This document shows, piece by piece, positions 3,408-31,687 of a DNA stretch of 40,222 nt. The position numbers were made by a program, and so were the translations under genes. Source of the stretch: a virus; the IMG/VR virus record IMGVR_UViG_3300049811_000205, positions 1-40,222 of that record; one strand, written 5' to 3'. The notes under the pieces were generated by a model. It saw nothing but the letters and a program-made list of their open reading frames with translations. It was not told where the DNA came from and searched no databases. Every line of letters starts with the position of its first letter. Position 1 is the stretch's first letter.

Positions 3408-5378
3408 CTAGAAGAACTCCGACAGCGGTAGGTTTTTTTCTTGGCGCTGTGCGATCGCCTCGGGCGTGAGGTAGTACGCATACGAGCGGCCATCGTCAGT
3501 GCGCACTCTGCGCCGCTCCATCCCAATGGAGCGTGTGAGTATCCTACCGATGCGCATCTGAACCTTTGTGTCGAGCTTCGTGAGCTCGCCACGGAGCGCT
3601 TTGTTGTGCACCTCGCCTATGGTCACATGGAAGTCCGGGTCCCCTTGGCAGTAGCCCACGTGCGTGCGCAGGTACTCCTCTATGGGCTGCTCCCACTCGT
3701 CGCTGGGCATAGCCTCCTCTTGGAGGCGCTTGGCGTCCTCCGGGGGCACCTCCGGGTATTCGCCCCCGTTGCGCACCGCGTGGTACGCCTCTGCGAAGAG
3801 CTGGTCGCGGTTATCGGTGAGCCACGCAAAGTCCACGGTGCCCTGGAGATTCACGATCCAGTACCGCCTGTTGCCGGTGGAGTCGTGGAGCATCTGCGTT
3901 TCGTTGGTCGTGAGCGCGAAGACAAAGCGCCGCTTGTGCCGCTCCGTCACCTTGCCGTACGGGGACCGGTACTCGTCAAAGGTGCTGCTGATGGTGCTCT
4001 TGAGCTTCGCAGCATCGCTCTTGTACATTGCGACACCTTCGTCGAGGTCCACAAGCACCCCGCCGCGCATCTGCAAGAAGAAGTCCTTGTCGCTCACGTT
4101 GCCAGAGTAGCTCTTGTACCATGGTCCCCCGATGATCCGCAGAAGCGAAGTCTTGCCGATACCCTGCCCACCCGAGAGCACGAGGCAGTGGTCGAACATA
4201 CAGCCAGGGGACACCATGCGCTTGACCATGTGTATGAGCCACTGCGCTCCGACACCTCTGTGGTAGTCGTTCTCCTCGACGCCTGTCGCGCGTGGCAGCC
4301 ACGTTGCAAGGCGTGGTACACCGTCCCACTCCATGCCGTTCAAGTAGTCCATCACCTCATCGTATGAGTTGCGATGCGCCACGGCCTCCATAGCGTCGTA
4401 CACGATGTTTTTCGATATGCCGGGGAGCATCTCAACGTTCTCTTGGAGCACCCGCACAGCGTCGAGCACGTCCCGCTCCCGCAATGGCTCCCCGTCAAAC
4501 TCGATCGCCTGCTGGAATAGGTTGTACCTGAGCTTCCCGCGATAGAGCGGATGCTGCTCGAAGACCATGCAGGCGTTGGTCATGTCCTTTATGGTCACGA
4601 GGTTCTTACTCTTGCGCAGCACCAGCGCCGCCTGGTCCTCGGGAGCGATCTGCACCGGGGAGGGTTCCATGCGCCGCGCCTCCTCGGTCCGTGCGATGGA
4701 CCGGAAAACGGTCTTCAGTTCCGTCTCAGAGAGCGGCGGGTCGAATGTGCGGTTGATGCGCTCCACGACCGGCCATATAACGGGCTCCCACGCGCTCTGT
4801 GGCTCGTTCTGGAGCAAGGTACCGATCACCGAGGCCATGGAGTCGTTCCTGCTGCCCTTCGTTGCTTGTAGGGCCATTCTGAGCGTCTTGCGCTGCTTTT
4901 TCCCCTCGCCAAAGAGCTCGATGGGGAACGGTGCGTAGTTCGCAAAGCGCACCACCTCATAGACACCCGTCGCACCCGGCACCTTCGGCGTGATCACCGA
5001 GGGAGGGGCTACGACAAACCCGCCATCTGAGCGCAGGTCCACGTGCGGGAGATGCGGGTACGCGCCAGCGGACACGGTAAGCCCTGGGTGGTACTGGTAG
5101 TAGAGCTGGAGGCCGCCGTTGCCGGTCTTCACGGTGTAGGTCTCGGGGAACACGGACGGGTCGCCACCTGCATACGTGTCAACGTCCACGACCGTGATGC
5201 CGCTTATCTTGCCCGTCACGATGCCCCAGTTGCAGTCTCCGTAGCGCTCCTTCCATGCGTCAATCTCATCATCTGTCGCGCACCTTGACTGGTATTCTTT
5301 CCATGGGATAAGTGGTTTCTTGTCCTTACCCACGGGGATGAGGGACATGCCTTGCGCGACGTATGAGAGTATGTTCAT
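3408..5378 (-). CDS. Prim-Pol primase fused to VirE/D5-like helicase
   Basis: A 656-residue protein. Residues about 1-170 form an N-terminal bifunctional primase-polymerase domain: the metal-binding pair is VVDVD (residues 63-67), and TGNGGLQLYY follows near 85, then VDLRSDGG. In this family the position after GGL is usually His; here it is Gln. Residues about 340-600 form a VirE-type SF3-like helicase with Walker A GGQGIGKTS near residue 400, LVDLDEG, and TTNETQML followed by GNRRYWI. It would prime and unwind the phage genome. No separate DNA polymerase gene was found, so host polymerase or this domain must extend. It begins after a structured leader of about 100 nt. Confidence 0.88.
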   Translation of the reverse strand: MNILSYVAQGMSLIPVGKDKKPLIPWKEYQSRCATDDEIDAWKERYGDCNWGIVTGKISGITVVDVDTYAGGDPSVFPETYTVKTGNGGLQLYYQYHPGLTVSAGAYPHLPHVDLRSDGGFVVAPPSVITPKVPGATGVYEVVRFANYAPFPIELFGEGKKQRKTLRMALQATKGSRNDSMASVIGTLLQNEPQSAWEPVIWPVVERINRTFDPPLSETELKTVFRSIARTEEARRMEPSPVQIAPEDQAALVLRKSKNLVTIKDMTNACMVFEQHPLYRGKLRYNLFQQAIEFDGEPLRERDVLDAVRVLQENVEMLPGISKNIVYDAMEAVAHRNSYDEVMDYLNGMEWDGVPRLATWLPRATGVEENDYHRGVGAQWLIHMVKRMVSPGCMFDHCLVLSGGQGIGKTSLLRIIGGPWYKSYSGNVSDKDFFLQMRGGVLVDLDEGVAMYKSDAAKLKSTISSTFDEYRSPYGKVTERHKRRFVFALTTNETQMLHDSTGNRRYWIVNLQGTVDFAWLTDNRDQLFAEAYHAVRNGGEYPEVPPEDAKRLQEEAMPSDEWEQPIEEYLRTHVGYCQGDPDFHVTIGEVHNKALRGELTKLDTKVQMRIGRILTRSIGMERRRVRTDDGRSYAYYLTPEAIAQRQEKNLPLSEFF

Positions 5379-7496: not shown

Positions 7497-8486
7497 TTAA
7501 TTGCTAATCGCGCCGAAAAGCGTGAACGGATTGACCAGGTGCTCGCGCACCGTGTCCGCTCGCTTCAGCACGTCAAATAAATACCCTCCCTTCCACACCT
7601 CGATGTGGAGGTGCGGGCCGGTGGAGGTTCCAGTGTTGCCGGTAAGTGCGATCACCTCGCCGCGTCGGTAGGTACCCTTGCGGGGAGGCGCTTGCAAGTG
7701 CGCCAAGCGCAGGGTGTAGAGCTTGCCGTTGTAGTGCCATTCGTAGAGGCAGGCGTTACCGAGCGTCTTGCTTTTCGCCCACACAAAGGTTACTGCGCCA
7801 TCGGTAGGGGCGTATACCGGCGTACCTTGGGGGCAAGCAATGTCCGTGCCTGCATGGATGCCGGAAGCGTACTGCTTGTTCACAGCGCCAAAGTGCTGCG
7901 TGACGCGCAAGCTCGTCCAGTTGGCAAGCGGAGCTGTCACCCGCTCGCGTCGCACTGCGGAAGTGATGCGCTGCACCAAGTTCTTCGGTGCTTCGTAGTC
8001 GCTCATACTCAACATGATACATTCTTTTTCGTAGTCCCAGTAGTGGGTGCGGTCCTCCTGGTGGAAAACCTCAGCAAACCAGTGGCTCATCTCGTGCAGA
8101 AACACTTTTACAAAACGGTCAACCTCACGCCCCGACTTATACAAAACCTTCGTATGCTGGTTTGCAATGACGTACATCTCGCCAAACGCCTCATCGTTTA
8201 TGGTGGAGCCGCGCAACGTCTGTTTGATGCCCCGCTGCCGGGCGTAGAGCTCGTCCATGTGGAGCACCATGGCGCTGTAGCCTCGGCGCTTGGCATAGAG
8301 CGTAAGGACGTTGAACCAGGCGCGGTCTACCTTGCCACCGGCCTCGCGCACGTTGCCTTTGAACTCCTCCACGTCGATCTCGACGGGGCCGATGTCCTTT
8401 ACAAGCCCAATGCCGCCACGACATGCAGCGAGCTTCTCCGGCCAAGAGGCCCACTTCGGCTGCGTGGTGAGGATGAGGATTTTCAT
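7497..8486 (-). CDS. Endolysin with two zinc-peptidase domains (HExxH plus M23)
   Basis: 329 residues. The N-terminal half holds HEMSHWF near residue 130, a zincin HExxH motif, inside a context (FVKVFLHEMSHWFAEVF) like a minimal metallopeptidase. The C-terminal half is an M23/LytM domain: HAGTDIACPQGTPVYAP near residue 210 and GPHLHIEVW near residue 287, with the zinc ligands H, D and HxH. M23 enzymes cut peptidoglycan peptide bridges. The two domains could act on different bonds, or the first may process a protein. It overlaps the XhlA-like gene by ATGA and is followed by the holin candidate. Confidence 0.82.
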   Translation of the reverse strand: MKILILTTQPKWASWPEKLAACRGGIGLVKDIGPVEIDVEEFKGNVREAGGKVDRAWFNVLTLYAKRRGYSAMVLHMDELYARQRGIKQTLRGSTINDEAFGEMYVIANQHTKVLYKSGREVDRFVKVFLHEMSHWFAEVFHQEDRTHYWDYEKECIMLSMSDYEAPKNLVQRITSAVRRERVTAPLANWTSLRVTQHFGAVNKQYASGIHAGTDIACPQGTPVYAPTDGAVTFVWAKSKTLGNACLYEWHYNGKLYTLRLAHLQAPPRKGTYRRGEVIALTGNTGTSTGPHLHIEVWKGGYLFDVLKRADTVREHLVNPFTLFGAISN

Positions 8487-15962: not shown

Positions 15963-16331
15963 ATGACACACGCATCAATATTCGCAGCAGGACTCAATAA
16001 GCAGGTTGCAAAACGAGTCCCTGACACAAAAAACTTTACCATTGCTAGAGCAATAGATAGCCTCGAAGCAGCAAACAATAAGATAGTGAAAGAGGCAGGC
16101 TACTCTTGTGGGTTGGAGAACTTCCCACGACAGCGAGGCAAGGTTGTGACTGGCTTCTTTTCTAGCCCAGATTACCAGAACGAAAAACTGTACTACACAC
16201 TTATCAAAGATGGCTGGCGCAACGCAGGCTATGGAGCAGCCTATTATTGGAAAGTGCGACGTGGCCCAGTTATCTTGGGTTATAGCGAGGGCGACATTAC
16301 AATTTGGGAAGAAAAAGATATAACCAACTAA
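15963..16331 (+). CDS. Accessory protein of unknown function, 122 aa
   Basis: Second gene of the operon, 23 bp after the first. It has an N-terminal helix pair (FAAGLNKQVAKRV, ARAIDSLEAANNKIV) and an aromatic-rich C-terminal half (YYTLIKDGWRNAGYGAAYYWKV, GDITIWEE) that looks like a small beta-sheet. The leader CCAACTAACCAACAAACATT is typical of this genome. No family was recognised. A small DNA- or protein-binding factor is one option. Confidence 0.65.
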   Translation: MTHASIFAAGLNKQVAKRVPDTKNFTIARAIDSLEAANNKIVKEAGYSCGLENFPRQRGKVVTGFFSSPDYQNEKLYYTLIKDGWRNAGYGAAYYWKVRRGPVILGYSEGDITIWEEKDITN

Positions 16332-16336
16332 CCACC

Positions 16337-16531
16337 ATGAAACACTACACCATAGGAGAAATACACCGCCTTGGTCTTCTCAAAAACCACAAGGGACAGC
16401 CATACACCGACAAGGCAACTGTCTCACGAGTGCTCAATGGGCAACCGCACAAAAAAGTCACTACGCCTTTTGGGGTTGCAAAGACTTTTCCTCAGTCTGT
16501 GATTGATTCTCTAAACGCACGCTGGCATTAA
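16337..16531 (+). CDS. Probable small HTH DNA-binding protein, 64 aa
   Basis: Starts at ATG 16337 (MKHYTIGEIHRLGLL). The arrangement TIGEIHRLGLL, a Gly-rich turn and DKATVSRVLNG has the length and pattern of an HTH, and PFGVAKTFPQSVIDSL could add a third helix. As last gene of the operon whose promoter carries a palindromic operator, it is a candidate autorepressor. An alternative upstream ATG (16304) would overlap the previous gene. Recognition as HTH is by eye. Confidence 0.62.
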   Translation: MKHYTIGEIHRLGLLKNHKGQPYTDKATVSRVLNGQPHKKVTTPFGVAKTFPQSVIDSLNARWH

Positions 16532-16611: not shown

Positions 16612-19353
16612 TCATCTGATGTACGCTGCATATTGTTCAGGTTTTATTTGTTCTGCTTCTAAAAGCCTTTTTGCAAGGATATTTAATTTTTTAGTAAGTT
16701 CTTGTGTGGTTGGATAATTTGCCTTCCTTTTTATTTCATCAAGACTACTAACCTTTGCTTTTCCTCTTCCTAAACTGTTATCTATAAAGTTAACCGTAAA
16801 TCCTTCATTTTTCAAGCGTTCTGCAACCTGCAATGAGCCAATGTGATTTTGTGCAACAACTTTTGTTGGCACAAGTCTGCCACCCTCATCAGCGTTATTT
16901 ATCATTCGCGCGACCACACCATTCTCAAACGAATCGAACGGATCGCGGTACACATAGTCAATAACAACTTTTTTCCCTGCATCTAGTGCCTCATTTATTT
17001 TCTTGATTGCAGAGTTGTATGAAGACAAGTTAGAATCTAACACCGCCGCCGCACCATCAAGTTCTCTACTTATTTTAGGTATACCCTTCAATGCAGAAGA
17101 TTTGCCCGTACCACTTCCTCCAGCAGTCAAAATCACATAGTCCCCTTGTCTTTTAAGTGCTTGTGTCCATGCTTTTTTAGCAAGATACGAAGACGGTTCT
17201 TGTACTGCTGCTGCATTACTTCCAACATACCCAACATCTGTAAACAAAGGTCGAAAGTTGTCAGTGTTTATGACCTTACCCCCAGGCCCAGATAGTTTAG
17301 GATTGGAGAAATACTCACTAAGTAGGCCATCCTCATTTTCAATGATTTTGTTGTATGCCGCTTCCTCAATTTTTTTACTTTGTGGGTCAAGGCTCAAGTC
17401 TCGTTCAAATTGTCGTGTCCCTGGGGATTGCGCTATTGACGCTGGTGCTGGCTGTGCTTTACTAGCCCCCATGGGACTATTATTCATACTCGTACTGCTG
17501 GGGATTGCGCTTTCGTCCAGGGATTGATCGTCAAGCGACTCCAAAAGCTCGCGCAGTGCACGTTGCTGGTCTTTTGGCCCCACCGTGCCAGCGTTTAATA
17601 CCTTGTCTGCAACGTCCATAAGGCTGGGCTTTATTGCTGTGCGTATGCTGCCTTGGAAGCCTGTTTTCGGTACAGTGTCGGGGTAAATCGTACGCAAGTC
17701 CTCAGCAAACACTACTAGGTCACTCGGTTTGGCACCGTCATAGCCGTATGTGCGTGAGGTAGTATCAAGGCGGTCTGCCACTTCTTTGAAGTAAGGCGTA
17801 GACAATGCCTCTCCTTCTAAGCGACGAAGGTTCACCGCTGCGCTTGCCTCGGGGTCTACTTTGATACCCATGGTGCGAGAGGTCTTGAAAATGCTGTTAT
17901 CAGCCTCGTCCACAAGGTTCCTGAGCACTGCATAGTCCTTGTTGAGTGCGCGTATGTTCCCATCGTCTATCTGGTCGAGTGTGCTTCGGTACACGTCACG
18001 GAAGGTGTCGTAAATAGACTTAGTACCACCATCTGCTTTAATCAGAATATCGTCCAGTCCTTCCACACGAGAGTTTTCCCGCTTCATCTTCGAGAAAAGG
18101 CGGTCACGCGCGTGAACGGCCAGTGCATCCATGCGTCCTAGGTTGTCTATGTCCCGTAGGGCGGTGTCGTAGAGTTTCTGTATGGAAGCCATCTCAGCAT
18201 CGGTCATACTTGACGTGCTCATGCGCTTAACCTTGCCACGTTCGAGGTAAAGCCCGTTCTGGCGCAGGATGGTATCAAGCTCCGCAAGGGGCTTTTGCAT
18301 ACTCACCTTGGTGTCCGGTAGCGCCTTGATTGCTTCCTCCAATGACTGCCCGACTGCCTTGCGTTGGCTGTCTATAACCTCGTACTGTTTGGCGACTGCT
18401 TCTCCAGCAACACGAGAAGGTCGTGCGTCTCGTGCTCCACTCTCAGCAATGTCGAGCATGTCCTTCATAGCTTTGCGAGTTGGTGCGTCCGTCTGAGTTA
18501 CGAGTGAAATGGTGTTGTCTGGTACGTTTACCTCGATAGCCTTTCCTACTGCGGGAGCTGATCTGCGTATCCTCTCAGCGCGAGCGGCGCGGTCTGCAAG
18601 GTTATCTTGCACGTTGGAAACGGCACGAGGGACACGTCCAGCTAAGTCCTTGGCGGCTTGTGTGACACCTGGGGCGACGTTAGGAATTGACGGTACGTTT
18701 ATGTCAGACACAGCGTCTATTGCCCCACGAGCTGCTTGCTTGGTGGTGTCTACGCCAGTCTTTAACCCCTGTTCGACCACCTCCTTACCTTTTGCAAGTG
18801 TTCCCAAACCAAAGCGGTCGAGCGCAAGCTCCAGCACACCAAGCGTTGCATCTATGTCTCGTCCTCGCTCCGGGTTTGCTTCTTTGTACGCCTGTAGTTT
18901 TTGGTATGCGTCCACAAGGCCAGTATCCTGAGCGACCTTTTTAAGGTCGGCAGAAACACTGTCCTCGGTTTCCTGCGTGGTGAACAGCTTACCCGCCGTT
19001 GTGACACCTCGGCTTATGAGGTCGCCCACACCTCCCGCAACCTGTCCTAGCTGTTGGAAGGCGGTGCGTGCAAAGCCCTGCTTCGCATCAAGTCGCGCCT
19101 GGCCCGCTTCGGTGACAGTCTCACCACGTTGGTTGAGGTCTTGACCTACACCTAAGAAGCCTTCTTTAAGGTCGTTTGGTATGTCAGAAACAACACGGCT
19201 GAATAAACTTCTCTTTTGAGGTTGTAGAGCCTCAGAAACAATAGATTGCTTGCCTTGTCGTGCCTTGGCAATATCGCCCATGATTAGGGTGGTACTTACA
19301 CCTTGTGCTTTAAGCTCTCGGGCTCTTTGCAATTCTTGTGCTGATAGTGCCAT
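16612..19353 (-). CDS. Large internal virion protein with C-terminal zeta-toxin-like kinase domain
   Basis: 913 residues. About 1-640 is a long helical, Ala/Lys/Asp-rich region (KEGFLGVGQDLNQRG, AAKDLAGRVPRAVSNVQDN) like ejected or internal head proteins. From about residue 735 comes a P-loop domain: VILTAGGSGTGKSSALK (Walker A near 745), AAVLDSNLSSYNS, KKVVIDYVYRDPF, a long helix, then LVPTKVVAQNHIGSL. This matches zeta-toxin/PezT-type kinases, which phosphorylate UDP-N-acetylglucosamine or nucleotides. The C-terminal 250 codons are visibly more AT-rich than the rest, suggesting a gained domain. The partner gene follows (ends at 19355). Confidence 0.78.
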   Translation of the reverse strand: MALSAQELQRARELKAQGVSTTLIMGDIAKARQGKQSIVSEALQPQKRSLFSRVVSDIPNDLKEGFLGVGQDLNQRGETVTEAGQARLDAKQGFARTAFQQLGQVAGGVGDLISRGVTTAGKLFTTQETEDSVSADLKKVAQDTGLVDAYQKLQAYKEANPERGRDIDATLGVLELALDRFGLGTLAKGKEVVEQGLKTGVDTTKQAARGAIDAVSDINVPSIPNVAPGVTQAAKDLAGRVPRAVSNVQDNLADRAARAERIRRSAPAVGKAIEVNVPDNTISLVTQTDAPTRKAMKDMLDIAESGARDARPSRVAGEAVAKQYEVIDSQRKAVGQSLEEAIKALPDTKVSMQKPLAELDTILRQNGLYLERGKVKRMSTSSMTDAEMASIQKLYDTALRDIDNLGRMDALAVHARDRLFSKMKRENSRVEGLDDILIKADGGTKSIYDTFRDVYRSTLDQIDDGNIRALNKDYAVLRNLVDEADNSIFKTSRTMGIKVDPEASAAVNLRRLEGEALSTPYFKEVADRLDTTSRTYGYDGAKPSDLVVFAEDLRTIYPDTVPKTGFQGSIRTAIKPSLMDVADKVLNAGTVGPKDQQRALRELLESLDDQSLDESAIPSSTSMNNSPMGASKAQPAPASIAQSPGTRQFERDLSLDPQSKKIEEAAYNKIIENEDGLLSEYFSNPKLSGPGGKVINTDNFRPLFTDVGYVGSNAAAVQEPSSYLAKKAWTQALKRQGDYVILTAGGSGTGKSSALKGIPKISRELDGAAAVLDSNLSSYNSAIKKINEALDAGKKVVIDYVYRDPFDSFENGVVARMINNADEGGRLVPTKVVAQNHIGSLQVAERLKNEGFTVNFIDNSLGRGKAKVSSLDEIKRKANYPTTQELTKKLNILAKRLLEAEQIKPEQYAAYIR

Positions 19354-19354
19354 G

Positions 19355-21079
19355 TTAGAGGTTGATTAGCTGCTGCATTTCATCGGGAGCAAGCATGAGA
19401 CGTGTTGATAGTTCTTCATCACGAGCCCGTAAACCTTTTTGTACCATCAGCAAGTCATTTCTTAATGACTCCTCGCTGCCTTGGTAGTCCTCTACTCGCC
19501 CAGAAGGATTGCCTGACGCATCTTTGCCTATAACAAGACCAGAGTTTAGCCTGTTCGCTGCTGAGAATATCGCTGCACGCTCGCCTTCAGTAAGGCTTCC
19601 AAACGTCAACCCGCTTTCCTTGAGTCCTATAAACTCCTTGAACCCCTCCGAGTTGTACAAATACTGCAAGTCGGTGAGTATCTTGTCCCTATCGTTGCGT
19701 GACTGGATAGCCCCTTGGATGTTTCCAACAACAGGAACGAGACTTACGAGCGAAGCTGCGCTGCCGTCCTTCCTGCCGCCTGAGAAAAAACCACTAATGG
19801 TTGGGCTTTTCACTTGTCCAGTAATTGCACCTATGCCCCTGTTATTCTTAAGCATGCCGTCAATTAGGTTGATGGCCTGTGATGTCTCCACTAGCTTGCG
19901 TTCTGATTGAAGCGTCTGCTCTGGGGTCAGTCCTTTAGTGCGTGGGTCGTAACCAAGCGAAGCAATGGCGAGCGGGTCGCCATCAGCGGCAAGTTTAATG
20001 ATGTTTGCCCGTTGTCCCCAATCAATACCGCTCTGCTCTGGCGCTGTGAGTTTGTTTAGTTGTGCTTGCTTAATCTGTCGGTCAAGCGGGTCTACCATGT
20101 AATTCCCAAGCTGTGACAGTGCTTGCTCTGGGGTGACACCTCCATACATAATGTTTTGTACCTTGGAGAGTGGAGCGCCGTTCTTTAGGGCTTCAGTTGC
20201 TATGTTGAGCACACTTTCTCTTTGTGCACGGTCTTCGGTTAATTTTCGCTCCCGCTCTTTCAGCGCGAGGTCAATCGCTTTCGATTTCTTCTCTGCCTCT
20301 GCCGCAATCTCGCCATCAAACGTCGCTGCTTCTCGTTTGTAGCTTTCGGATACGTTGCGGTAGTAGTCGATGGCTGCCTGTTCGTCTCCAAACTCATCAT
20401 CAAGGGTCTGCTGCACCGTGTCTTCGATAAGCTTGAGGTTGTTTGAGTAGGCGGCGTTTACCAAAGCCTCGGCGGTTATCTCCGCTGTGAGCATCCTGTT
20501 TATTGGTGCCAGTCGTGCCTCTGCGCCGATGCGGGTCTGCCCTGCTTCGCTTTCCATAAGCGGCCTGGCTGCTGCGAGGTCACCCTGGAGCTGTGCAAGA
20601 CGCACGTTTGAGTCTGAAAGGTTGGTGCGGGCCTGGCCTGCTCCAGCCTGGTCGAGTAGCTCCTGTCGGCGTCCGGCCGTGTCGCGGTTCTGCATCCCTT
20701 GTAGGCCAGTACGGAACTGCTCCTCTGAGGCTCGCTGCTGGTTGAGTACGGCACTCTGAGCCGTCTGTGCTGCACTGGGAGTACCGTACAGCGCCTCAGC
20801 AAGCTTGGTCGTGCCCTGAAGTGTGGAAAGTAGGCCATCCATGCCGCTTTGCGTGGTCTGCTGCTGCTCAAGCTGGTTGCGACGGTTCATCACGTCGTTG
20901 TACGTCACTCCAGACGTGACTGCGGTTGAGGGAGTGCGGTCGTTAGGGATGGGGATGGTCACCTGCGGCTTGGGGGTAGGTGCAACAGAGCTGTTTTTCG
21001 CCTGTTGTGAGTATTGCTGCACGAGCTTGTCTTTGAGGGACAAGGAGGAAGGAAAACCGATGAGTCCTTGGGGGTTCAT
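19355..21079 (-). CDS. Internal virion/ejection protein, 574 aa
   Basis: A long alpha-helical protein rich in Gln, Ala and Glu (NRRNQLEQQQTTQSG, ASEEQFRTGLQGMQN, KERERKLTEDRAQRE), with a Gly-rich hinge (VKSPTISGFFSGGRKD) and a hydrophobic patch (SLVSLVPVVGNIQG). This is the usual look of podovirus core proteins ejected with the DNA. It lies 1 bp before the 913-residue protein, with which it probably forms the ejection channel, and 26 bp after the tail nozzle gene. No enzymatic motif is visible. Confidence 0.7.
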   Translation of the reverse strand: MNPQGLIGFPSSLSLKDKLVQQYSQQAKNSSVAPTPKPQVTIPIPNDRTPSTAVTSGVTYNDVMNRRNQLEQQQTTQSGMDGLLSTLQGTTKLAEALYGTPSAAQTAQSAVLNQQRASEEQFRTGLQGMQNRDTAGRRQELLDQAGAGQARTNLSDSNVRLAQLQGDLAAARPLMESEAGQTRIGAEARLAPINRMLTAEITAEALVNAAYSNNLKLIEDTVQQTLDDEFGDEQAAIDYYRNVSESYKREAATFDGEIAAEAEKKSKAIDLALKERERKLTEDRAQRESVLNIATEALKNGAPLSKVQNIMYGGVTPEQALSQLGNYMVDPLDRQIKQAQLNKLTAPEQSGIDWGQRANIIKLAADGDPLAIASLGYDPRTKGLTPEQTLQSERKLVETSQAINLIDGMLKNNRGIGAITGQVKSPTISGFFSGGRKDGSAASLVSLVPVVGNIQGAIQSRNDRDKILTDLQYLYNSEGFKEFIGLKESGLTFGSLTEGERAAIFSAANRLNSGLVIGKDASGNPSGRVEDYQGSEESLRNDLLMVQKGLRARDEELSTRLMLAPDEMQQLINL

Positions 21080-21105: not shown

Positions 21106-22896
21106 CTATACTGGCCGAACGTCAATCTCGTCGAGTATGGGGCTGTCTCCACCGTCTGAGTGTAGTTCGATAAGCACCTGGCAGGATGGAGAGGTTGGGC
21201 TTGGTATCGTGATTGTCCTTTGTGTCTGTGCGCGGTCGTTAAATGACGCCAGCTTTTTGAAGTCCTCGACCGCTACAATACCCGCGTCTGAGGCGGTAAT
21301 GCCGTAGATTGCTTCATCAAGGGTCACCGTGTAGGTGCTTGTGGCAAGGGAGATACTCGCTATGTGGGCTGAGCATCCACCGCCATGGCCTACCGTGACA
21401 AACACCTCATCCCCAACCGCAGCGTTCGCAAAGTCGGTTGAGGTGGTGGTGAATACGGTGCTACTTGTCCAGGTCACTGCACCCTTTAGTGGGTATGCGG
21501 CGCTTCGATGTGTGCGGTACTTCACTACAATTTTATCATCCGCGTTCTTCATCTTCTGGTACTTGAGTGCCACTTCCCACTGTGTGGTGTCCTCGGGTGC
21601 AAATACCTCGTTTGTCCATATCCTGGCGCGACGTTTGGTAGTGCCAAATTGGTCATCAACGTAGATTGCCGATTTGTTAGTGGCACTCGCGTCTGTGTAG
21701 TAGCCATGCTGTAAGAGGATTGAATAGCTACGGTTATCTTTAGTTGCTTGAATACCTCCAGGGCATGAGTCCGCGAGAGCTGGTGAGCACCACTGCCCCA
21801 TGTCAACGCTTCCCGTTTTGTCCATCGTGGCACTGAACTTGTGAGAAAACCGCCCAGTCTGTGGGTCGTACTCCCACACACCCGAGGGAAAATAGGGGAA
21901 GTAGGAACCCGCAGAAACGGAGCTCGCGTCTATTTTTGAAGAAATGTTAATCAGTATCTTTCCATCCTTAGCAACCATTCCACGCTGTCCGACGTTCACT
22001 GGGTTGAAATCCCCATCCCAGTTGTCTAGGTTTTTGTACTTTCCGACAATCGGAAGCGCTCCAACCGTTCTAAAGCCTCCACCTTCCAATACCTGTAGCT
22101 CTCCGTTTGTGGTGAGAATGTACAGCGTGTCGCCTACTGTAGTAGCGGTGAACGCACCAAAGGAGTCCAGCTTGTACACACGGGTTGGAAGCACATCCCC
22201 CCCGTCCCATTCGTACACCAAACCAAAACCATCACCATTCCCAGCGTAGGTGCAGCCGATGTACGCACGTGAGAGTCCAGAGCGTATCCATTTAATGTAG
22301 TGAGACGCACTGAGTGTGAGCTTGGTCGCCGTTGCGGTGTAACTACCAGAAGGTTTCTGTACCGTACGGATAATGTTCCCGTCACCAATCGCAAGGACGT
22401 TGGTGAAAAGTAGAGGCTCCATCGGGTGAGGGTTCCCACTTGTGAGCGCTGCTCCTCCCGAAAGTCCAGAAAACCAATCTTTTGTCCAGTTGTTTGTGTA
22501 GTCATCCCTACGGTATATCCGCGTACTCAGAGACACGATAACCGCACCGTCGTAGACCACAACATCCGAGTTTTCGGTGTCTGCGTCTTGGTTCCCACCA
22601 CCTCCAGGTGCGTATGTGTTGTCATCTAGGTCAAACGCGCCAGTCGCATTTCCTATGTATGTATTATCCTCGCTTGAAGTCCAGTACACACCATCCCAGG
22701 CCACGAAGTTCGAGCACTGCTCTAGCGCTGCTTCGTCAGTTGTGTTTGTGCCTTGTATGAGCCTGGCTGAAGGGCACACCTTCCCAGGGTACTTTGTGAA
22801 GTCACAGTTAAACGTACCAGCGACGTTTGAAAACGCATCCCGCTCTCCTTGGTTGCGCTGTACAAACACTGGATTGTCTGGGTTGGGTATCTTCAT
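21106..22896 (-). CDS. Tail nozzle/tubular protein B-like, 596 aa
   Basis: A beta-propeller-like protein with repeated blades (VVVYDGAVIVSLSTRIYRR, GDTLYILTTNGELQVLEGGG, KDGKILINISSKID) and a C-terminal beta-domain (CQVLIELHSDGGDSPILDEI). Podovirus tail nozzle (tubular B) proteins have this size and fold and sit between the adaptor and the ejection proteins, as here. The start overlaps the small coiled-coil gene by ATGA. Confidence 0.72.
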   Translation of the reverse strand: MKIPNPDNPVFVQRNQGERDAFSNVAGTFNCDFTKYPGKVCPSARLIQGTNTTDEAALEQCSNFVAWDGVYWTSSEDNTYIGNATGAFDLDDNTYAPGGGGNQDADTENSDVVVYDGAVIVSLSTRIYRRDDYTNNWTKDWFSGLSGGAALTSGNPHPMEPLLFTNVLAIGDGNIIRTVQKPSGSYTATATKLTLSASHYIKWIRSGLSRAYIGCTYAGNGDGFGLVYEWDGGDVLPTRVYKLDSFGAFTATTVGDTLYILTTNGELQVLEGGGFRTVGALPIVGKYKNLDNWDGDFNPVNVGQRGMVAKDGKILINISSKIDASSVSAGSYFPYFPSGVWEYDPQTGRFSHKFSATMDKTGSVDMGQWCSPALADSCPGGIQATKDNRSYSILLQHGYYTDASATNKSAIYVDDQFGTTKRRARIWTNEVFAPEDTTQWEVALKYQKMKNADDKIVVKYRTHRSAAYPLKGAVTWTSSTVFTTTSTDFANAAVGDEVFVTVGHGGGCSAHIASISLATSTYTVTLDEAIYGITASDAGIVAVEDFKKLASFNDRAQTQRTITIPSPTSPSCQVLIELHSDGGDSPILDEIDVRPV

Positions 22897-23896: not shown

Positions 23897-24562
23897 CTAA
23901 GCATCCCAGGTTATCGGGAGCGAGGTAAACAGAGCATCGACTTGTATCTTCTTGTCTCCCCAACAATGTCCACCAAGCGTAGGGCCAAAGGTGTCAATCA
24001 TCCGAAACCCGAGAGAGCGTACTACAGGGAGAATGTCGTCAATGAGCGGCGCACCTTCGTTGTACGGGACAAACGAAAGCTCAAGAAGTAGATACTTGGC
24101 CTTGCGTATCGTCTCCTTACCACCTTCTATGATGTCAAGCTCGCTTCCTTGCGTGTCAATCTTAATGAAGTCGTACAGGGAACCAGCAAAAAGGTCATCT
24201 AGTCGCTGTATCTGCTTCATTTCGGATATTGGAGCAGAAAACGCACCTGTGCGCTCCTTGTAGAAGGAGGAGCCACCACCCACAATGTCGTCGGGGTTGA
24301 CATAGAAGGTCTGCTCACATGCTTGCGAGCCCAAACACGCGTACACAATGTTGAACGGGGACGAATTGAGGAAATACTTGTCCCTCTCGTTGCACTCCAC
24401 ACCTGTTATCGCAGCATCGGGGTAGAGCTCATGGAACATCTTGGAGAAGTGCCCATGGGCCATGCCAATATCAAGCATGGAGTATATCGGGCCTAAGCCT
24501 TTGAGGTGCCACTTCATGTACCCGACTGCCTCGTCGGGTGTAGGGCTAGCGTACTTTATCAT
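23897..24562 (-). CDS. FkbM-family SAM-dependent methyltransferase
   Basis: 221 residues. The SAM-binding motif is SMLDIGMAHGHFSKMF, followed by ITGVECNERD, then the family mark DFIKIDTQGSELDIIEGG and LLLELSFVPYNEGAPLIDD. FkbM enzymes O-methylate sugars and other hydroxyls. It overlaps the glycosyltransferase gene by 17 nt, so it probably methylates the sugar that the partner adds to a virion protein, a host surface glycan or DNA; the target is inference. It sits among structural genes. Confidence 0.88.
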   Translation of the reverse strand: MIKYASPTPDEAVGYMKWHLKGLGPIYSMLDIGMAHGHFSKMFHELYPDAAITGVECNERDKYFLNSSPFNIVYACLGSQACEQTFYVNPDDIVGGGSSFYKERTGAFSAPISEMKQIQRLDDLFAGSLYDFIKIDTQGSELDIIEGGKETIRKAKYLLLELSFVPYNEGAPLIDDILPVVRSLGFRMIDTFGPTLGGHCWGDKKIQVDALFTSLPITWDA

Positions 24563-26801
24563 ACCAAGTTTGCATTACCTTATCCCATGAGAACGACTGA
24601 GCCGCTTTCTGTATTGCGTCTCGGTCTACTCCTGACATAGCATCCTTAATGGCTTGTATGTACTCCTCCTTTTCGGTGACGGGTATCTGCTCTCCGGTCA
24701 GTTGGGTTTCTTTGAGCGCTGCAAAGCCCGAGGTAATGGGGTACACTCCGGCAGCTTGCATCTCTCGGGCGGTAATGCAGTCAATCTCGGGAAACTCTGT
24801 AGGGTAGAGCCACACCCCGCTTGCGAGCATCTCCTTCGCAAGCTGTTTCTGTCCCACACGCCCGTGGTAGGTAATCCCGTCCTGTTGTAGTTTGGCTTTC
24901 ATGGTCTGCATCCACGCCATAGCCTGTGGGTTGTCCTTCTCCACCTTCTCAAACGTCTCCCAGCCGTAGAAGACGTGAAGCTCTGCGTCTGGAACCGCTT
25001 TGCGTATGTCAGGCCACCAATCAAGGATGTGCTCCAATCCACGGTTAGGGGCTGAGGAGTAGATAATACGCTTCGGGTTGCGCTCCACGAGGTTCCAGAA
25101 CCTGTCTAGGTCGATACCGTTACCTACAACCACCACCTTTTCATCTGGCACCTGGGGATAGAGAGAACGATGGTACTGCGTTTTGACGAAGAAATAGTCC
25201 ATCCGCGCTATGCGCTCGGGGGTGAAGTCTTCACTGTTTCCAACATCGTGCATGTCGAATATCACCTTGCGGGCGTTCCACGGGACATCAAGCATCATTG
25301 GCATACGCCACAACCACAGCACATCAAAGTGGTCTGCTTTGTTGAACGTCCACACGTTCTTGTACGTCACACCGTTTACCGTCTTCCCTTCAGGGGGATG
25401 TTCGCGACCGTTGTACACAACCACCTCCCAGCCCTTAGCTGCAAAGCGTCGGGTAAGCTCTATGACTGCCGTCTCACTCCCTCCTATTCCTTTTCCGTCC
25501 TGGTCACCGTCGCTCCATTCCTCAGCCGATACGCCGCAGTACACGGCAATGCTGTTCTTGGGCCATTTCCTGCACGGCATAGTCTTGCGTTGCAGAGAAA
25601 GGATGCGAGGGTCGTCAGCTAAGGTGCTCGGGACAGCCTCTAGGAGCTTTTCTACAAGCTCTGGGTGAGTGGAGTGGAGGTAGTCTCCTAGCTTTTTATA
25701 GGTCTTAGCTAGGTTTTCGTCGTTCCGCATCTTCGTTGCGAGTTCCAGTAGGGTGCGGTCGTGCTCGGTGTTGAACTTGGACACAAGGTACTCCGCAAGC
25801 TCGTTGGCTTCGTCGAAGTTGCCCAGGTGAAGGTGCGCGAGAGCAGCGATAGCCTTGGCGTCGTGCGCCATGAGCATGGGGCGGTGCATCACACCATCAG
25901 TAGGTTCTACGATTGCACGTGCCTGGTTGATACAAGTGAGCACCTGTAGCCACTTTTCATCTGAAAGATATACTCGGGCCTTGTACACATGAGCGTAAGG
26001 ACACCGTTCGTTCTCAAGGAGTGCGTCATTGTAGGCCATCAGTGCTTCACGTTTCCGGTCGAGCTTCTCGAAGCACTCACCCATCAAACACTTGGCCTCG
26101 TAGCGTTCCTCATCCCATCCGCTTTTCTGAATGAACACGGATAGCGTTTTGAGCGCGTCTTCGTAGCGTTTAAGTGCGAGGTACGCTCTCCCTGCGTACA
26201 CATAGGTGCGTGGTTCGTCTGGGTTGGCCTCCATCTCAGCCTCTAAGATAACCAAGTTGCGCTCGTGGTGCTTCAGGTTGTCTTCACGGGTTGCGGTGTG
26301 TACCCGTACCACGTCGTCAATCTTTGCCCATACCACGCCACGCTTGGGGAGGAGGTCTTCGTGTATCTTCCCTACCCAGTGAGCGTGACCGTCGTTCTTC
26401 ACGAGCTGGGTGCGCCAGTGCGCGTCTACCACATTACCGTTGTCGTCTTTGAGGTACTCATAGAGCATCTGTAGGCCGGAACAATTCGTTTCCTCGGCAA
26501 GTGTGACACTCTTGCGGATATTATCTGCACCTCTCACCACATCGTCAGCGTCAAGCCACAGTATCCAGTCGCCCGTACACTGAGAGAAGTTGTAGTTACG
26601 TGCTGCTGCAAAGTCATTCGCCCACTTGAAATGGGACACCTTAGCGTTGTGCCTTTTGCACACTTTTCCCACAGTTTGATTGTCGCCTGTGATTGTCACA
26701 CACACTTCGTCAACGTGCTTTCCAACAGAGGAAAGACACCTGTCGAGTTTTGCAGCTTCTTCGTCATTAGGTGAGCAAATAAGCGCAAGGGAGATTGTCA
26801 T
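24546..26801 (-). CDS. Bimodular glycosyltransferase: GT2 plus TPR plus GT4-like
   Basis: ATG at 26801 (MTISLALICSPND) gives 751 residues. Residues about 1-190 are a GT2 domain, with the DxD-type motif LDADD near 83 and the basic WVGKIHEDLL. About 190-400 are TPR-like helical repeats (AYLALKRYEDALKTL, CFEKLDRKREALMAY). About 420-750 are a GT-B/GT4-like half with GKGIGGSETAVIELTRRF, VVVGNGIDLDRF and EMQAAGVYPITSGFAAL. It could build a disaccharide or glycosylate a virion protein. A single polypeptide with all three parts is uncommon. It overlaps both neighbours (FkbM, small upstream gene). Confidence 0.85.
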   Translation of the reverse strand: MTISLALICSPNDEEAAKLDRCLSSVGKHVDEVCVTITGDNQTVGKVCKRHNAKVSHFKWANDFAAARNYNFSQCTGDWILWLDADDVVRGADNIRKSVTLAEETNCSGLQMLYEYLKDDNGNVVDAHWRTQLVKNDGHAHWVGKIHEDLLPKRGVVWAKIDDVVRVHTATREDNLKHHERNLVILEAEMEANPDEPRTYVYAGRAYLALKRYEDALKTLSVFIQKSGWDEERYEAKCLMGECFEKLDRKREALMAYNDALLENERCPYAHVYKARVYLSDEKWLQVLTCINQARAIVEPTDGVMHRPMLMAHDAKAIAALAHLHLGNFDEANELAEYLVSKFNTEHDRTLLELATKMRNDENLAKTYKKLGDYLHSTHPELVEKLLEAVPSTLADDPRILSLQRKTMPCRKWPKNSIAVYCGVSAEEWSDGDQDGKGIGGSETAVIELTRRFAAKGWEVVVYNGREHPPEGKTVNGVTYKNVWTFNKADHFDVLWLWRMPMMLDVPWNARKVIFDMHDVGNSEDFTPERIARMDYFFVKTQYHRSLYPQVPDEKVVVVGNGIDLDRFWNLVERNPKRIIYSSAPNRGLEHILDWWPDIRKAVPDAELHVFYGWETFEKVEKDNPQAMAWMQTMKAKLQQDGITYHGRVGQKQLAKEMLASGVWLYPTEFPEIDCITAREMQAAGVYPITSGFAALKETQLTGEQIPVTEKEEYIQAIKDAMSGVDRDAIQKAAQSFSWDKVMQTWYDKVR

Positions 26802-27148
26802 ACGGTATCGCAAGTACGAAAGCCTTTATACACTTTCATAAAGTGGTGGAGCTTTCGTTTGTTAGTGAATAAGTCGGGCATAATCTGTTGCAGCTTGAAG
26901 TACAAGCCTGGTGGGAGTGAGGCACCGTGGCGCATGGTCTTTCCTTTGTTGCTGCCAAACTTGGTGTAGTTAGAGTTACGAATCGCAGCGTTCTGTACCA
27001 CAATGGCCTGTGTTTCCATAGGATGTATTTGTGTGTACTCCCGTATGGCTTCGTCTACAGCGTCCCAGTTTTCAGTATGTTGGGCCACGTTCACGACGTA
27101 CACACCTTTGAAGGTGCCGTCGGGATTTCGGACTATGTGTTCTTCCAT
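26798..27148 (-). CDS. Small unknown protein coupled to the glycosyltransferase, 116 aa
   Basis: ATG at 27148 (MEEHIVRNPDGTFKG). A beta-hairpin-like start (KGVYVVNVAQHT) is followed by IREYTQIHPMETQAIVVQNA, a Gly/Lys-rich GSNKGKTMRHGASLPPG and a helical C-terminus. The stop overlaps the glycosyltransferase start (ATGA). No family is recognised; the position suggests a role in the same modification system. Confidence 0.62.
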   Translation of the reverse strand: MEEHIVRNPDGTFKGVYVVNVAQHTENWDAVDEAIREYTQIHPMETQAIVVQNAAIRNSNYTKFGSNKGKTMRHGASLPPGLYFKLQQIMPDLFTNKRKLHHFMKVYKGFRTCDTV

Positions 27149-27429: not shown

Positions 27430-29003
27430 CTAGGAGTTGTATCGCTTGGACACGACACCTGTCTTTTCCCCTCGGTGCTCAATCGTGAGCTCGGTGATAA
27501 TCTGGCGGCTGTCAGCGTCAGCGGTCTTCGCAACCTCCACAACCTGCGTTGGGCGCAAGTACGAAAGGTAGTGGTAGTCGCTGTTGATACCTACCAGGTC
27601 ACGGCCTGACGCTGCGCTCGCAACGTTGCGGTGGAGCATAATCTGCTGCATACCGAAGTCGCTCTCGTACACGTCAACCGACGCAACGAGCTTCTTGGAA
27701 CCAGCCTCCACGTTCTTGGTGCTGCCTCCGGTAAAGCCCGAGATGGTGCGCTTGAGCTTACCACCAACGAAGATAATGTTCGGTACTTCGTCCGTGGATG
27801 CGTAGACCAATTCGAGAAGGTCATTGAAACCAGCCTCGGTGAGGGTCTGCGCGGAAGCCTGGGTCGTAGCGTTCGTGGTGAGCGCTGCAATCACACCCGT
27901 AAGGCGACGAGCGACACCCGAAGCACCCGAAGCGGTCGTGCCAGCCATGAGCGCGAGCTCGATGTCCTTAGCGTGCTCCTTGAGTGCCTTCTCGGTCTGG
28001 TACTGCCACGGGTCAACCACGCCAGTTACAGCGCGTTCAGTGCCCGAAACGGTGATGTTGTCGGTGAAGATTTGCGTCTTGTTGGTCGCACGGCTCGGCT
28101 GAGTAAGGTCAACCGCCGCAAACGACACTGCTTCCACCTGCGCGTTATCGGCTGCGGCTGCAAAGGTGTCGGTTGCGTACTCGTGCAACGTGTTGGTTGC
28201 GTCCGGCCCGCGCTTCAGCATCGAGAGAAGCGGGGTTTTGTCGGGAGATACGTTTGTAACTACGTCGATGAGGTCTTCCCGCCTTACTGCATCGTCGTAG
28301 GTAATACGATGTGTTACGTGTCATTTGACACGGGTAGTTTGTGAGTCTACCTCTGCATGTCGCCATGCAGTTCCGACTATATCATCTCCATCAAGGAGTC
28401 TAGCGTATAGTCTGTGAGGATTCCTGACTATATTACGTTCTTCTTTAAGCCGCTTCAGTTCCGCAAGTATGGCAAACTCTCGCGGGCTGCGTTTCTTTTG
28501 TGCAAAAAGTTCCTTGCGAATAGCAATAAACTCCAGCATCAATTCCGCTTCTTTGTGCTTTGTGACTAGAAACGGAAGAACGAGCGGTAAGAATCGTTCA
28601 TTTCTGCCTAAACCATTTACCAGTAAGTGCCACACAGGTTTTCGCGGATTCCCGTCTTTATCGAATCCGTTTTTCTTGTGTTGGACGTACAAGGGAAGGT
28701 TAAGGCTTTTGAATAGCTCGATTAGGTAGGACGATGTCAAAGAACAAGTTGTTGTGATGCTCGTGTAAGGGACTGGGTATTCCGTGCGCGTTTCCCTTGA
28801 CTTTCTTTGTCGTTGTATCCTCATTGAGATACAACCATCTGCATCAATTAGTCCTGCTAACCAAGCTAAGTTCAGGTCTTTCCTGCTGATTGTCTCCATA
28901 GGTTGAGTTTGTTACGTAGGTAGTACTCATACATTCGGGAGGGTTTCCAGCATATAGCTAGATTTTTTTACATTGGGCCTATTACGTCAAGTCCAATAGC
29001 CAT
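27430..29003 (-). CDS. Major capsid protein, split by a group I intron
   Basis: Exon 2 (27430-28321) encodes AVRREDLIDVVTNVSPDKTP, LHEYATDTF and QTEKALKEHAKDIELALMAG, typical of the SU10-type (DUF5309) HK97-fold capsid proteins. Exon 2 has no start codon of its own. The missing N-terminus is a 14-nt exon 1 (29003-28990, MAIG plus two bases) right after the scaffold gene. Removing 28989-28322 fuses the two in frame to 301 codons. The join is supported by the P1 pairing and the 3' guanine rule, but the exact splice site is inferred from sequence. It would be the main shell protein, with scaffold and portal upstream. Confidence 0.85.
28321..28899 (-). CDS. Intron-encoded LAGLIDADG homing endonuclease
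   Basis: 192 residues. LAWLAGLIDADGCISMRI near residue 15 is a textbook LAGLIDADG motif. No clear second motif follows, so it is a one-motif type expected to act as a homodimer. Coding overlaps the intron core (its last 30 codons are the R and S elements), and the TGA stop overlaps the 3' splice site (28323-28321). It would cut an intronless capsid gene and drive spread of the intron. LAGLIDADG enzymes in phage introns are less common than GIY-YIG or HNH. Confidence 0.95.
   Translation of the reverse strand: METISRKDLNLAWLAGLIDADGCISMRIQRQRKSRETRTEYPVPYTSITTTCSLTSSYLIELFKSLNLPLYVQHKKNGFDKDGNPRKPVWHLLVNGLGRNERFLPLVLPFLVTKHKEAELMLEFIAIRKELFAQKKRSPREFAILAELKRLKEERNIVRNPHRLYARLLDGDDIVGTAWRHAEVDSQTTRVK
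28322..28989 (-). other. Group I self-splicing intron in the major capsid gene
   Basis: Core elements on the minus strand are P-like TGCTGGAAACCC (28952-28941), R-like ACAGACTATACG (28415-28404) and S-like GATATAGTCGGAAC (28383-28370), giving a P7 of GACTATA/TATAGTC. P1 pairs exon ATTGGACT with intron GGCCCAAT, ending in the needed U-G pair, with one A-C mismatch. The intron ends in G at 28322. Length is 668 nt. Exact ends are inferred; a repeated ACGTAA near both borders leaves a second, less rule-abiding join possible. Confidence 0.85.
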
Positions 29004-29543: not shown

Positions 29544-29855
29544 TTAATCCTCTTTCGAGGTAATTATCGGATTGTCATCCGACCTATTCTGTAGCGTAAC
29601 ATATTCGCTACTTAAACTAATAAACGTGTCAAGGCGCTTGAGAAATGCCTCAAGTATCTGCCGTGCACCGTCTTGAATGAGTATCTGCGTCCCTATCGTG
29701 TCCAGCCTGGTTCGGTCAAAGCGCGTGGCCGATATGCGGTCTAGCTCAGCAATCTCCTCCTCAAACATAGAACGGATAAGAGCCCAGCCTTCCGTTTTCA
29801 TCGTGGCCTTAATCGCGTCGGATTTTACTAGCGCAAGGTTTGTATCCTCGTCCAT
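29544..29855 (-). CDS. Small unknown protein of the head cluster, 103 aa
   Basis: A helical protein (WALIRSMFEEEIAELDRISA, LDTIGTQILIQDGARQILEAF) between portal and scaffold genes. The ATG overlaps the portal stop. Position suggests a head maturation or portal-associated factor. No family is recognised. Confidence 0.6.
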   Translation of the reverse strand: MDEDTNLALVKSDAIKATMKTEGWALIRSMFEEEIAELDRISATRFDRTRLDTIGTQILIQDGARQILEAFLKRLDTFISLSSEYVTLQNRSDDNPIITSKED

Positions 29856-31687
29856 TACAGTGCCATTGGTGCGGCAGTTGACGGCATTGTGTTAGCGTCA
29901 GTCGTAAGCTGCTGCTGGTTCATCATGGTATCAAGTGTACCACGGGCCATTGTTGGCTGTACAGGTTGCGACTGGTAGAGAGACTGTGGAACGGGAATAC
30001 CGAGAAGGTCGAGGGCAGAGGCTACAAAGTCATTCTTCACCTGCTGGTCTTGGAGTACGTTTGCTAGGTCAATGAGGTTGCGTACCGTTACCGAGGTGTC
30101 CACTTCCTCGTTCGTGAAGAACACTTGAACGGTCACGCCATCCGTAACCACCTCGTCGAGCACCTTAAAGAACAGATCACCATCACGGCGAAGCTGTATC
30201 TCGGCTTTTTGTATGGCTTCTTGCATGGAGGCCTCGTCAGGCACATTTCCCTTGGCGTACTGCTCCTCAAGAAGCTGCATCGCGTAGAAAGCCACTACCC
30301 CTTCCCTCACACGGTCTACGTTGTCGAAGTCCCCAAACACCGTTGTCCACTTCTCCTCCTTCATCATCTGTGCCACGTGGGGCATGACGTGGCGCTCAAG
30401 CCACCTGGTCTGAAACTGTCCCCAGGCTTCTTTCACCATGACAAAAGCGCTCTTTCCGTGGGCGTCCTGGATGGCGGCTCCCGTTGCTGAGGTAGAAGCC
30501 GGAAGCGGTGCTCCCATGTTCACGTCGAAGATTGAGGTCACCTGCTGGCTCCATTGCCGCACGTTCTCCTCGTCGGTGTAGCTGTCCTGGCCAGCGGGCT
30601 GAATGTCCAGTGAGGTGAGGTCGTCCTTGTCGGAAACCTTGAGTATTCCGCTTGAGACAAGGGAGGAAACCATCTGCTGTGAGAGGTCTTTGTCAGCACT
30701 GCGCCACTTGAGAATACCAAGCTGTGCGAGTGTGTTCTTGTTGATGCGTAGGTTAACAACGAGGTTTATCCACTCTTGAAGGTACAAAACCATCTCTGGG
30801 ATACCCACACCGTACCAGCGTCCAGGAACCTTCATGTACCAGCCTTCTTCGTAGGGCTTTATGATGTTCCCTTGGCGGTCTGTGGTGCTGTTTTCCTCAA
30901 TCACATGCACAACGCTTGTCCCGCCGTCTATACCAGAAATGACGACATGCAAGTCTACCTCGTCCGTGTCCTCCAGGTTGCCAGTCAAGAGCTTGCGTGG
31001 GCCTTTGCCCCACATCTCGTACACATCCACCATCGAATAGGGGGACAAGACGCTTTCCATTCCAGCCTCCTTGGGCTTACGGGTCATGGCTTCAACGTCC
31101 GTGTTGCGCCAGTCCATAGCTTTAATCTCCGAAACCGTCATCAAAGATCGCTCGGTGAAGCGGTAGGCCGTCTGTATGCTCTTAGCTGTGGGGTCGATGA
31201 AACAGTTGAGGAGGTCAACCGTGTGCTTTTCAACCTTGGTCTTGCCTTTCACCTTCCGCACCACGGTTTTCCACACCACCGTACCGTCGATAATCATCTG
31301 CAGCCTGTCCTGGTCAATCATCTCGCCGTAGTACATGCCATCAAGCCATCGGCGCATGTACCCGCGAATGAGTGGCGACCATAGGCGGCCTATCTTGGTG
31401 GTGCCTCGGAAATTGGTGTCCTTGGAGTCAACGTCACTATTCTTGTACGCCCCGTCTACCAGCACACGAGTAAGTGGCACCCACTGCTTTGGCCTTCCGG
31501 TGTTCTTGTCCTTGGGAGAATCAAAGATGCCCCAGTAGTTTTTACGGCACTTCTCAATGAGAGGCCGCATGTTGAAGCTCACCTTGTTGGTAACTTGGAA
31601 GGTGGAGTTCTTAAACTGCGTCACCTCGTCCTGAACGAGTTTGATAGCTTCAGCATCTATGTGTGATTGCTCTAGTTTTTTATCCAT
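29855..31687 (-). CDS. Portal protein, 610 aa
   Basis: Large helical protein following the terminase genes. Visible features are NTGRPKQWVPLTRVLVDGA, a long central region, PGRWYGVGIPEMVLYLQEW with NLVVNLRINKNTLAQLG (the usual portal clip/stem helices), and a Gln/Met/Pro-rich low-complexity tail. Length fits podovirus-like portals. It forms the ring through which DNA enters. Assignment rests on gene order and the PGRWYGxGIPE motif, a good sign in this family. Confidence 0.82.
   Translation of the reverse strand: MDKKLEQSHIDAEAIKLVQDEVTQFKNSTFQVTNKVSFNMRPLIEKCRKNYWGIFDSPKDKNTGRPKQWVPLTRVLVDGAYKNSDVDSKDTNFRGTTKIGRLWSPLIRGYMRRWLDGMYYGEMIDQDRLQMIIDGTVVWKTVVRKVKGKTKVEKHTVDLLNCFIDPTAKSIQTAYRFTERSLMTVSEIKAMDWRNTDVEAMTRKPKEAGMESVLSPYSMVDVYEMWGKGPRKLLTGNLEDTDEVDLHVVISGIDGGTSVVHVIEENSTTDRQGNIIKPYEEGWYMKVPGRWYGVGIPEMVLYLQEWINLVVNLRINKNTLAQLGILKWRSADKDLSQQMVSSLVSSGILKVSDKDDLTSLDIQPAGQDSYTDEENVRQWSQQVTSIFDVNMGAPLPASTSATGAAIQDAHGKSAFVMVKEAWGQFQTRWLERHVMPHVAQMMKEEKWTTVFGDFDNVDRVREGVVAFYAMQLLEEQYAKGNVPDEASMQEAIQKAEIQLRRDGDLFFKVLDEVVTDGVTVQVFFTNEEVDTSVTVRNLIDLANVLQDQQVKNDFVASALDLLGIPVPQSLYQSQPVQPTMARGTLDTMMNQQQLTTDANTMPSTAAPMAL

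Follow-up and report, generated by a model that had tools for sequence, protein, structure and literature searches.

The toxin ng_zeta1 transfers phosphate to the C4' hydroxyl of UDP-MurNAc, UDP-GlcNAc and UDP-glucose, and two of its sequence blocks are swapped with respect to streptococcal zeta toxins, so that its catalytic Asp stands before the P-loop (PMC5923241). Zeta-like kinases have already been reported in polyvalent proteins and MuF fusions, with cell-wall weakening as the proposed effect (Iyer 2017, PMC5512222); the broad class of zeta-like kinases in large phage proteins is already known. The C-terminal toxin domains of MuF proteins in temperate phages vary, and RelA-like and Apk2 domains are among them (Jamet 2017, PMC5576092; PMC12226406). 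In the genome of phage SU10, the gene of the nozzle protein gp17 precedes those of the ejection proteins gp20-24 (PMC9509320).

The window analysed here, which is the whole stretch of 40,222 bp, belongs to a virus record. It encodes a terminase, a weakly SU10-like portal protein and a major head protein, followed by a minus-strand block of large genes. The last large gene of this block encodes a protein of 913 residues, an open reading frame that the earlier note had described and that proved to be real. Its features are listed in Table 1. At a probability of roughly 0.6, we propose that it carries an ng_zeta1-type kinase on an ejected carrier, and that this kinase would phosphorylate a nucleotide-sugar precursor of the envelope early in infection.

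Table 1. Positions of the effector gene, its parts and its neighbours in the window.
Feature	Position	Strand	Remarks
913-aa effector-bearing protein, probable ejection (internal virion) protein	16612..19353	-	whole-length homologues in L001, L002, L080
N-terminal carrier region, residues 1-611	17521..19353	-	homologous to L001, L002, L078, L080; blastp 1e-5 to 1e-27, hhalign probability 99.3%
Pro/Ser/Ala-rich linker, residues ~612-654	17392..17520	-	carrier homology stops, effector module starts
ng_zeta1-type kinase module, residues 655-913 (~255 residues)	16612..17391	-	GC 39.6%
Catalytic-Asp block, residues 690-734	17152..17286	-	Asp698, Arg701; ahead of Walker A as in ng_zeta1
Walker A GGSGTGKS, residues 745-752	17098..17121	-	Lys751 corresponds to ng_zeta1 Lys115
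DSNLSSY, residues 773-779	17017..17037	-	strand and loop following the Walker A helix; Asp773 invariant
Residues 816-826	16876..16908	-	Arg816, Arg826 correspond to ng_zeta1 Arg175, Arg181
Portal protein, SU10-like (weak)	29855..31687	-	
596-aa probable beta-propeller nozzle-type tail protein	21106..22896	-	Foldseek top matches are beta-propellers; low-confidence model (pLDDT 37)
574-aa neighbour	19355..21079	-	positional counterpart of the L003 and L079 genes with phrog_2534 matches
64-aa small protein	16337..16531	+	conserved beside the effector gene in 7/7 phages, 35-69% identity
122-aa small protein	15963..16331	+	conserved in L001, L002, L078

Extent and class of the kinase module

The module differs from the rest of its gene in composition, as the earlier note had pointed out from the AT-rich C-terminus. 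Its GC content was 39.6% (GC3 29.6%), against 53.1% (GC3 51.5%) for residues 1-654, and Ala made up 11.8% of the carrier (residues 1-650). Every 777-nt piece of the 11 other large coding sequences in the window had a GC content of at least 50.1%, which makes the kinase module by far the most AT-rich of the coding stretches compared. A GC content so far under that of the remaining genome suggests that the module arrived recently from a source of lower GC.

The Walker A motif and the DSNLSSY motif were both found in the C-terminus, where they had been predicted. The domain itself was taken too short, as the C-terminal 170-180 residues. The catalytic-Asp segment GGKVINTDNFRPLF...QEPSSYLAKKA (residues ~691-728) precedes Walker A and is conserved as strongly as the remaining module, so that the module comprises ~255 residues; the interval 16612-17400 originally assigned to it does include this segment.

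The Pfam model Zeta_toxin matched with 27.7 bits against a curated cut-off of 22.3 (E=2.2e-6), covering only model positions 97-177 of 199. Since the same model also gave hits in 14/14 control genomes, the match taken alone is weak evidence and no proof of a toxin. The kinase is instead identified by its predicted structure and by its profile match to ng_zeta1, the sole solved family that was matched well by a profile of 58 homologues (6EPH, E=1.4e-21, colinear across profile positions 9-261). An AlphaFold model of the module had a mean pLDDT of 92.4, and Foldseek placed the ng_zeta1 structures 6EPG, 6EPI and 6EPH in the top ranks (E=5e-11 to 3e-10, TM 0.80-0.83, rmsd 2.9-3.3), the best match having E=5e-11, TM 0.82 and rmsd 2.9. 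A predicted structure without a P-loop kinase fold had been named as the result that would speak against a zeta-like kinase; the predicted fold was that of a P-loop kinase, and the profile match, the AlphaFold model and Foldseek together support the assignment strongly.

The helices had been called typical of zeta/PezT kinases, and this part did not hold. Streptococcal zeta and PezT structures (including 1GVN and 3Q8X) aligned poorly, with rmsd 8-10.9 (8-10.5 for 1GVN and 3Q8X), because of the block swap of the ng_zeta1 type. The order found in epsilon/zeta and PezT, with the P-loop followed by the catalytic Asp, is absent, as Asp698 lies ahead of Lys751. We considered this order as a new permutation and dropped the idea, since it has already been described for ng_zeta1 (PMC5923241). 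The enzyme class is firm: residues 655-913 form a P-loop kinase module of the ng_zeta1 type.

Residues Asp56, Lys115, Arg175 and Arg181 of ng_zeta1 correspond to Asp698, Lys751, Arg816 and Arg826, which are invariant in 58/58 homologues. Two UDP-MurNAc contacts of ng_zeta1 are altered: Lys59 is replaced by an invariant Arg in this family of 58, and Asn75 by Ser or Ala in the homologues (Ala714 in the window). As the catalytic residues are invariant and Asn75 is replaced, ng_zeta1-like chemistry is probably conserved and the exact substrate may differ; action on UDP-sugars is plausible, with the catalytic residues kept and one UDP-MurNAc contact lost. Loss of the Asn75 contact also fits a kinase that acts early on another target, such as NAD or a nucleotide (compare AvrRxo1) or a defence signal, and so disarms the host or a rival phage. 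AvrRxo1 was among the structural matches, and the alternative module described below is an enzyme of the nucleotide pyrophosphokinase type. However, the AvrRxo1 match (E=1.8e-3, rmsd 11) was far weaker than that to ng_zeta1 (E=5e-11, rmsd 2.9), and the module retains those basic and catalytic residues by which the UDP-sugar is held. Such a target seems rather unlikely to us, and phosphorylation of an envelope precursor is preferred.

Relatives of the module occur alone as ~300-aa proteins on many viral contigs, and within large polyvalent proteins together with NUDIX, ART-PolyVal, ddrB-ParB, LPD22, LPD38 or histidine-phosphatase domains. The gene of the homologue in L050 is located downstream of a portal gene, and that in L059 directly upstream of a gene for a virion structural protein. 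In L066 (4243-9804), a polyvalent protein of 1854 aa combines histidine phosphatase, zeta-type kinase and LPD38 in one chain. Bacterial genomes gave no matches in a scan with a narrow kinase alignment and six relatives of 29-38% identity with a broad one. Across homologous proteins of unrelated architecture, conservation was concentrated at the catalytic residues.

Carriers, exchanged enzymes and small neighbour genes

Seven phages were compared in all, three of which (L078, L079 and L080) were reached through a small gene neighbouring the effector gene. Among the window, L001, L002 and L003, the modules (last ~255 residues) were ~60% identical, against ~19-26% at best for the preceding ~620-650 residues, a difference that was counted for selection acting on the kinase module. 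L080 also carries the zeta module. The carrier of L078 is that of L001 (75-78% identity across 430-466 residues), and it ends in a domain of ~190 residues unrelated to zeta. This domain is shared with L079, where it is 51% identical, and in L078 it matched Tas1, a type VI effector and (p)ppApp synthetase, with E=5.7e-35.

Two carrier types without detectable similarity to each other were distinguished, type I in the window, L001, L002, L078 and L080, and type II in L003 and L079. All four combinations of carrier and enzyme were present (type I with zeta in four phages; type I with Tas1, type II with zeta and type II with Tas1 in one each). With so few phages, and with three of them reached through a neighbour gene that all have in common, the frequencies of the combinations carry no meaning, whereas their existence does. 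In the sister phage L078, a (p)ppApp-synthetase-like domain resembling Tas1 takes the place of the kinase on the same carrier, which shows the module slot to be exchangeable. A conserved N-terminal carrier with swapped putative enzymes at the C-terminus (L001 and L080 versus L078; L003 versus L079) is the pattern of polymorphic toxins. What is new here is the replacement of the zeta module by a Tas1-like domain on a retained carrier in a sister phage.

It could be argued that the kinase is a structural relic or an assembly ATPase without a toxic role, for its gene lies within the structural block and energy is used in some packaging and ejection steps of phages. However, the catalytic residues are the focus of conservation in proteins of unrelated architecture, and since the L078 carrier is intact with an unrelated Tas1-like enzyme in its place, the kinase would not be needed for assembly. 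This explanation was judged very improbable, and the kinase is treated below as an effector.

Two further observations concern these proteins. The 943-aa carrier protein of L078 (5412-8243) contains a tandem duplication of ~120 residues (ATVKETVKRTPQEAAEAVV...NTPQPK). GenBank lists the kinase-bearing protein of L001 (9835-12471; MW202577.1) as a thymidylate kinase, probably in error.

The 64-aa protein encoded next to the effector gene has the motif YTIGEI..LL...G.PY.DKATVS and, among 50,697 annotated phage records, matched MW202577 only. Because the first four phages compared all have it next to the kinase gene, it was considered as an antitoxin. This candidate was rejected, since the gene is also present in L078 and L079, both without the zeta module; it is thus a core gene of the group. 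A family of 209, 171 and 273 aa adjoining the kinase in L001, L003 and L080 was likewise discarded, being absent from the window and L002. None of the small genes flanking the kinase gene gave a Pfam antitoxin match, and no flanking gene tracked the kinase across the seven phages, in agreement with the earlier view that no epsilon-type antitoxin is obvious. As no paired antitoxin was found, we class the protein as an ng_zeta1-type kinase and not as a toxin-antitoxin system.

Gene neighbourhood and ejection

The effector gene is located two genes downstream of the gene for the probable beta-propeller protein, an assignment that comes from a low-confidence model. The MW202577 homologue of this 596-aa protein is annotated as 'putative isomerase ybhE'. 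In L003 and L079, the gene directly upstream of the effector gene matches phrog_2534, a family whose description reads 'released from the phage upon host infection'. The 574-aa protein holds the same place in the window, and its sequence homology to those two genes was not significant. The carrier had no PHROG match, and its profile retrieved no solved ejection protein at a significant level from PDB sequences; profiles of the propeller protein and of a 251-aa protein gave nothing significant against PDB sequences either. No new loci were retrieved when the carrier alone or the propeller protein served as query. No integrase was recognised among the genes scanned.

Judging from synteny and the family match of the neighbour, the carrier is likely an ejection protein that would enter with the DNA. 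On the same grounds, the fusion of a kinase to an internal virion protein, as first proposed in the earlier note, is plausible.

A free HNH gene (28321-28899) is located directly upstream of the head-protein gene in the window. The head-protein gene of L075 (9944-11503) is split around an HNH endonuclease gene, and a group I intron (RF00028, 70.9 bits) was found in the head-protein region of L076 (5468-5785); no RNA family was detected in a search of the window. The structural block of the window also includes a 755-aa double glycosyltransferase with TPR-like repeats (24546-26813), which is found in L075 and L076 as well, and an FkbM methyltransferase (23897-24562). A fusion of Prim-Pol and a VapE-like helicase (3408-5378) is likely the replication protein.

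Proposed action and comparison with known systems

If the phage is short-tailed and ejects the carrier along with its DNA, a few molecules of the protein would reach the cytoplasm. There, a nucleotide sugar from which the envelope is built (UDP-MurNAc, UDP-GlcNAc or a related compound) would be phosphorylated by the kinase at the expense of ATP. The phosphorylated precursor would be a dead-end product, and wall synthesis or host growth would stall at an early stage of the infection. Protein synthesised late could, in addition, weaken the wall ahead of lysis. A phage about to kill its cell would have no need for a cognate antitoxin.

Turnover was estimated from the published constants of ng_zeta1 and pool sizes of E. 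coli (PMC5923241), with an assumed cell of 1 fL, an assumed 4-12 copies and resynthesis ignored. Under these assumptions, turnover of the pool would take 69-207 s for UDP-MurNAc and more than a day for UDP-GlcNAc. At the slow rates of ng_zeta1 on UDP-GlcNAc and UDP-glucose, 4-12 ejected copies would have no effect within an infection. Early action thus needs a fast substrate, and otherwise late expression in bulk becomes likelier. The kinase may then act late in the producing cell, where an abundant structural protein drains wall precursors and aids lysis, its presence in the virion being incidental. The location of the gene in the structural block, so that it is probably made in bulk late, agrees with this, as do slow kinetics, under which only bulk amounts would matter, and the lack of a detected antitoxin. 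However, an M23 peptidase (7497-8486) already supplies a wall-degrading function, and late action leaves both the slot swap with a Tas1-like enzyme and the fusion to a virion-type protein unexplained. Moreover, homologues form part of large polyvalent proteins whose genes adjoin those for head, portal and virion proteins, and proteins of this class are believed to be delivered. Late action is unlikely on balance, and early phosphorylation by ejected copies is the reading carried forward.

There is an even chance, in our estimate, that these probably short-tailed environmental phages possess a polymorphic-effector platform of their own, distinct from MuF, in which the C-terminal slot of an ejection protein can take either a UDP-sugar kinase of the ng_zeta1 type or a (p)ppApp synthetase of the Tas1 type, both phosphotransfer enzymes, and the loaded protein is injected with the genome and requires no immunity gene. 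Ejection proteins are mostly regarded as channel builders. Phage T4 begins the takeover of its host with Alt, which is made in the previous host. If the platform exists, swappable enzymes that empty metabolite pools would ride on an ejection protein, and takeover would be begun by proteins from the previous host, as with T4 Alt. The cargo would be readable from sequence, and the concept of polymorphic toxins would reach beyond the MuF proteins of temperate phages and take in a different kind of virion protein.

Among described kinases, ng_zeta1 (6EPG/6EPH/6EPI, PMC5923241) is alike in the position of the catalytic Asp before the P-loop, the fold, the residues Asp56, Lys115, Arg175 and Arg181 and the colinear profile match. 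In contrast, the window module is without the C-terminal OB domain, no epsilon partner was found, Asn75 is not kept and Lys59 is replaced by Arg; ng_zeta1 is the toxin of a toxin-antitoxin pair, whereas the window module is part of a phage carrier protein. Epsilon/zeta and PezAT (1GVN, 3Q8X, 2P5T) have the P-loop kinase core in common and differ in block order, with Foldseek rmsd of at least 8.

The carrier resembles the ejection proteins of SU10 and T7 in its large size and in the place of its gene after those for portal, head and probable propeller-nozzle proteins, the propeller being a low-confidence model. It differs in that no sequence match to them was detected, and its place in the virion is a prediction. 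The zeta kinases of polyvalent and MuF proteins (Iyer 2017, PMC5512222) are also zeta-like kinases in large phage proteins thought to be delivered. Polyvalent proteins hold two or more conflict domains per chain, whereas the window protein has one known domain and no polyvalent-associated domain. A MuF domain is absent from it, Pfam giving only Zeta_toxin and a weak AAA_19. The carrier is accordingly unrelated to MuF by Pfam, there is no consistent downstream immunity gene, and the MuF toxins belong to temperate phages whereas the present group are probably short-tailed phages with no integrase among the genes scanned. Both groups have in common a phage structural carrier with variable C-terminal domains of toxin type, which in the MuF proteins include adenosine 3'-pyrophosphokinases, an activity related to that of Tas1.
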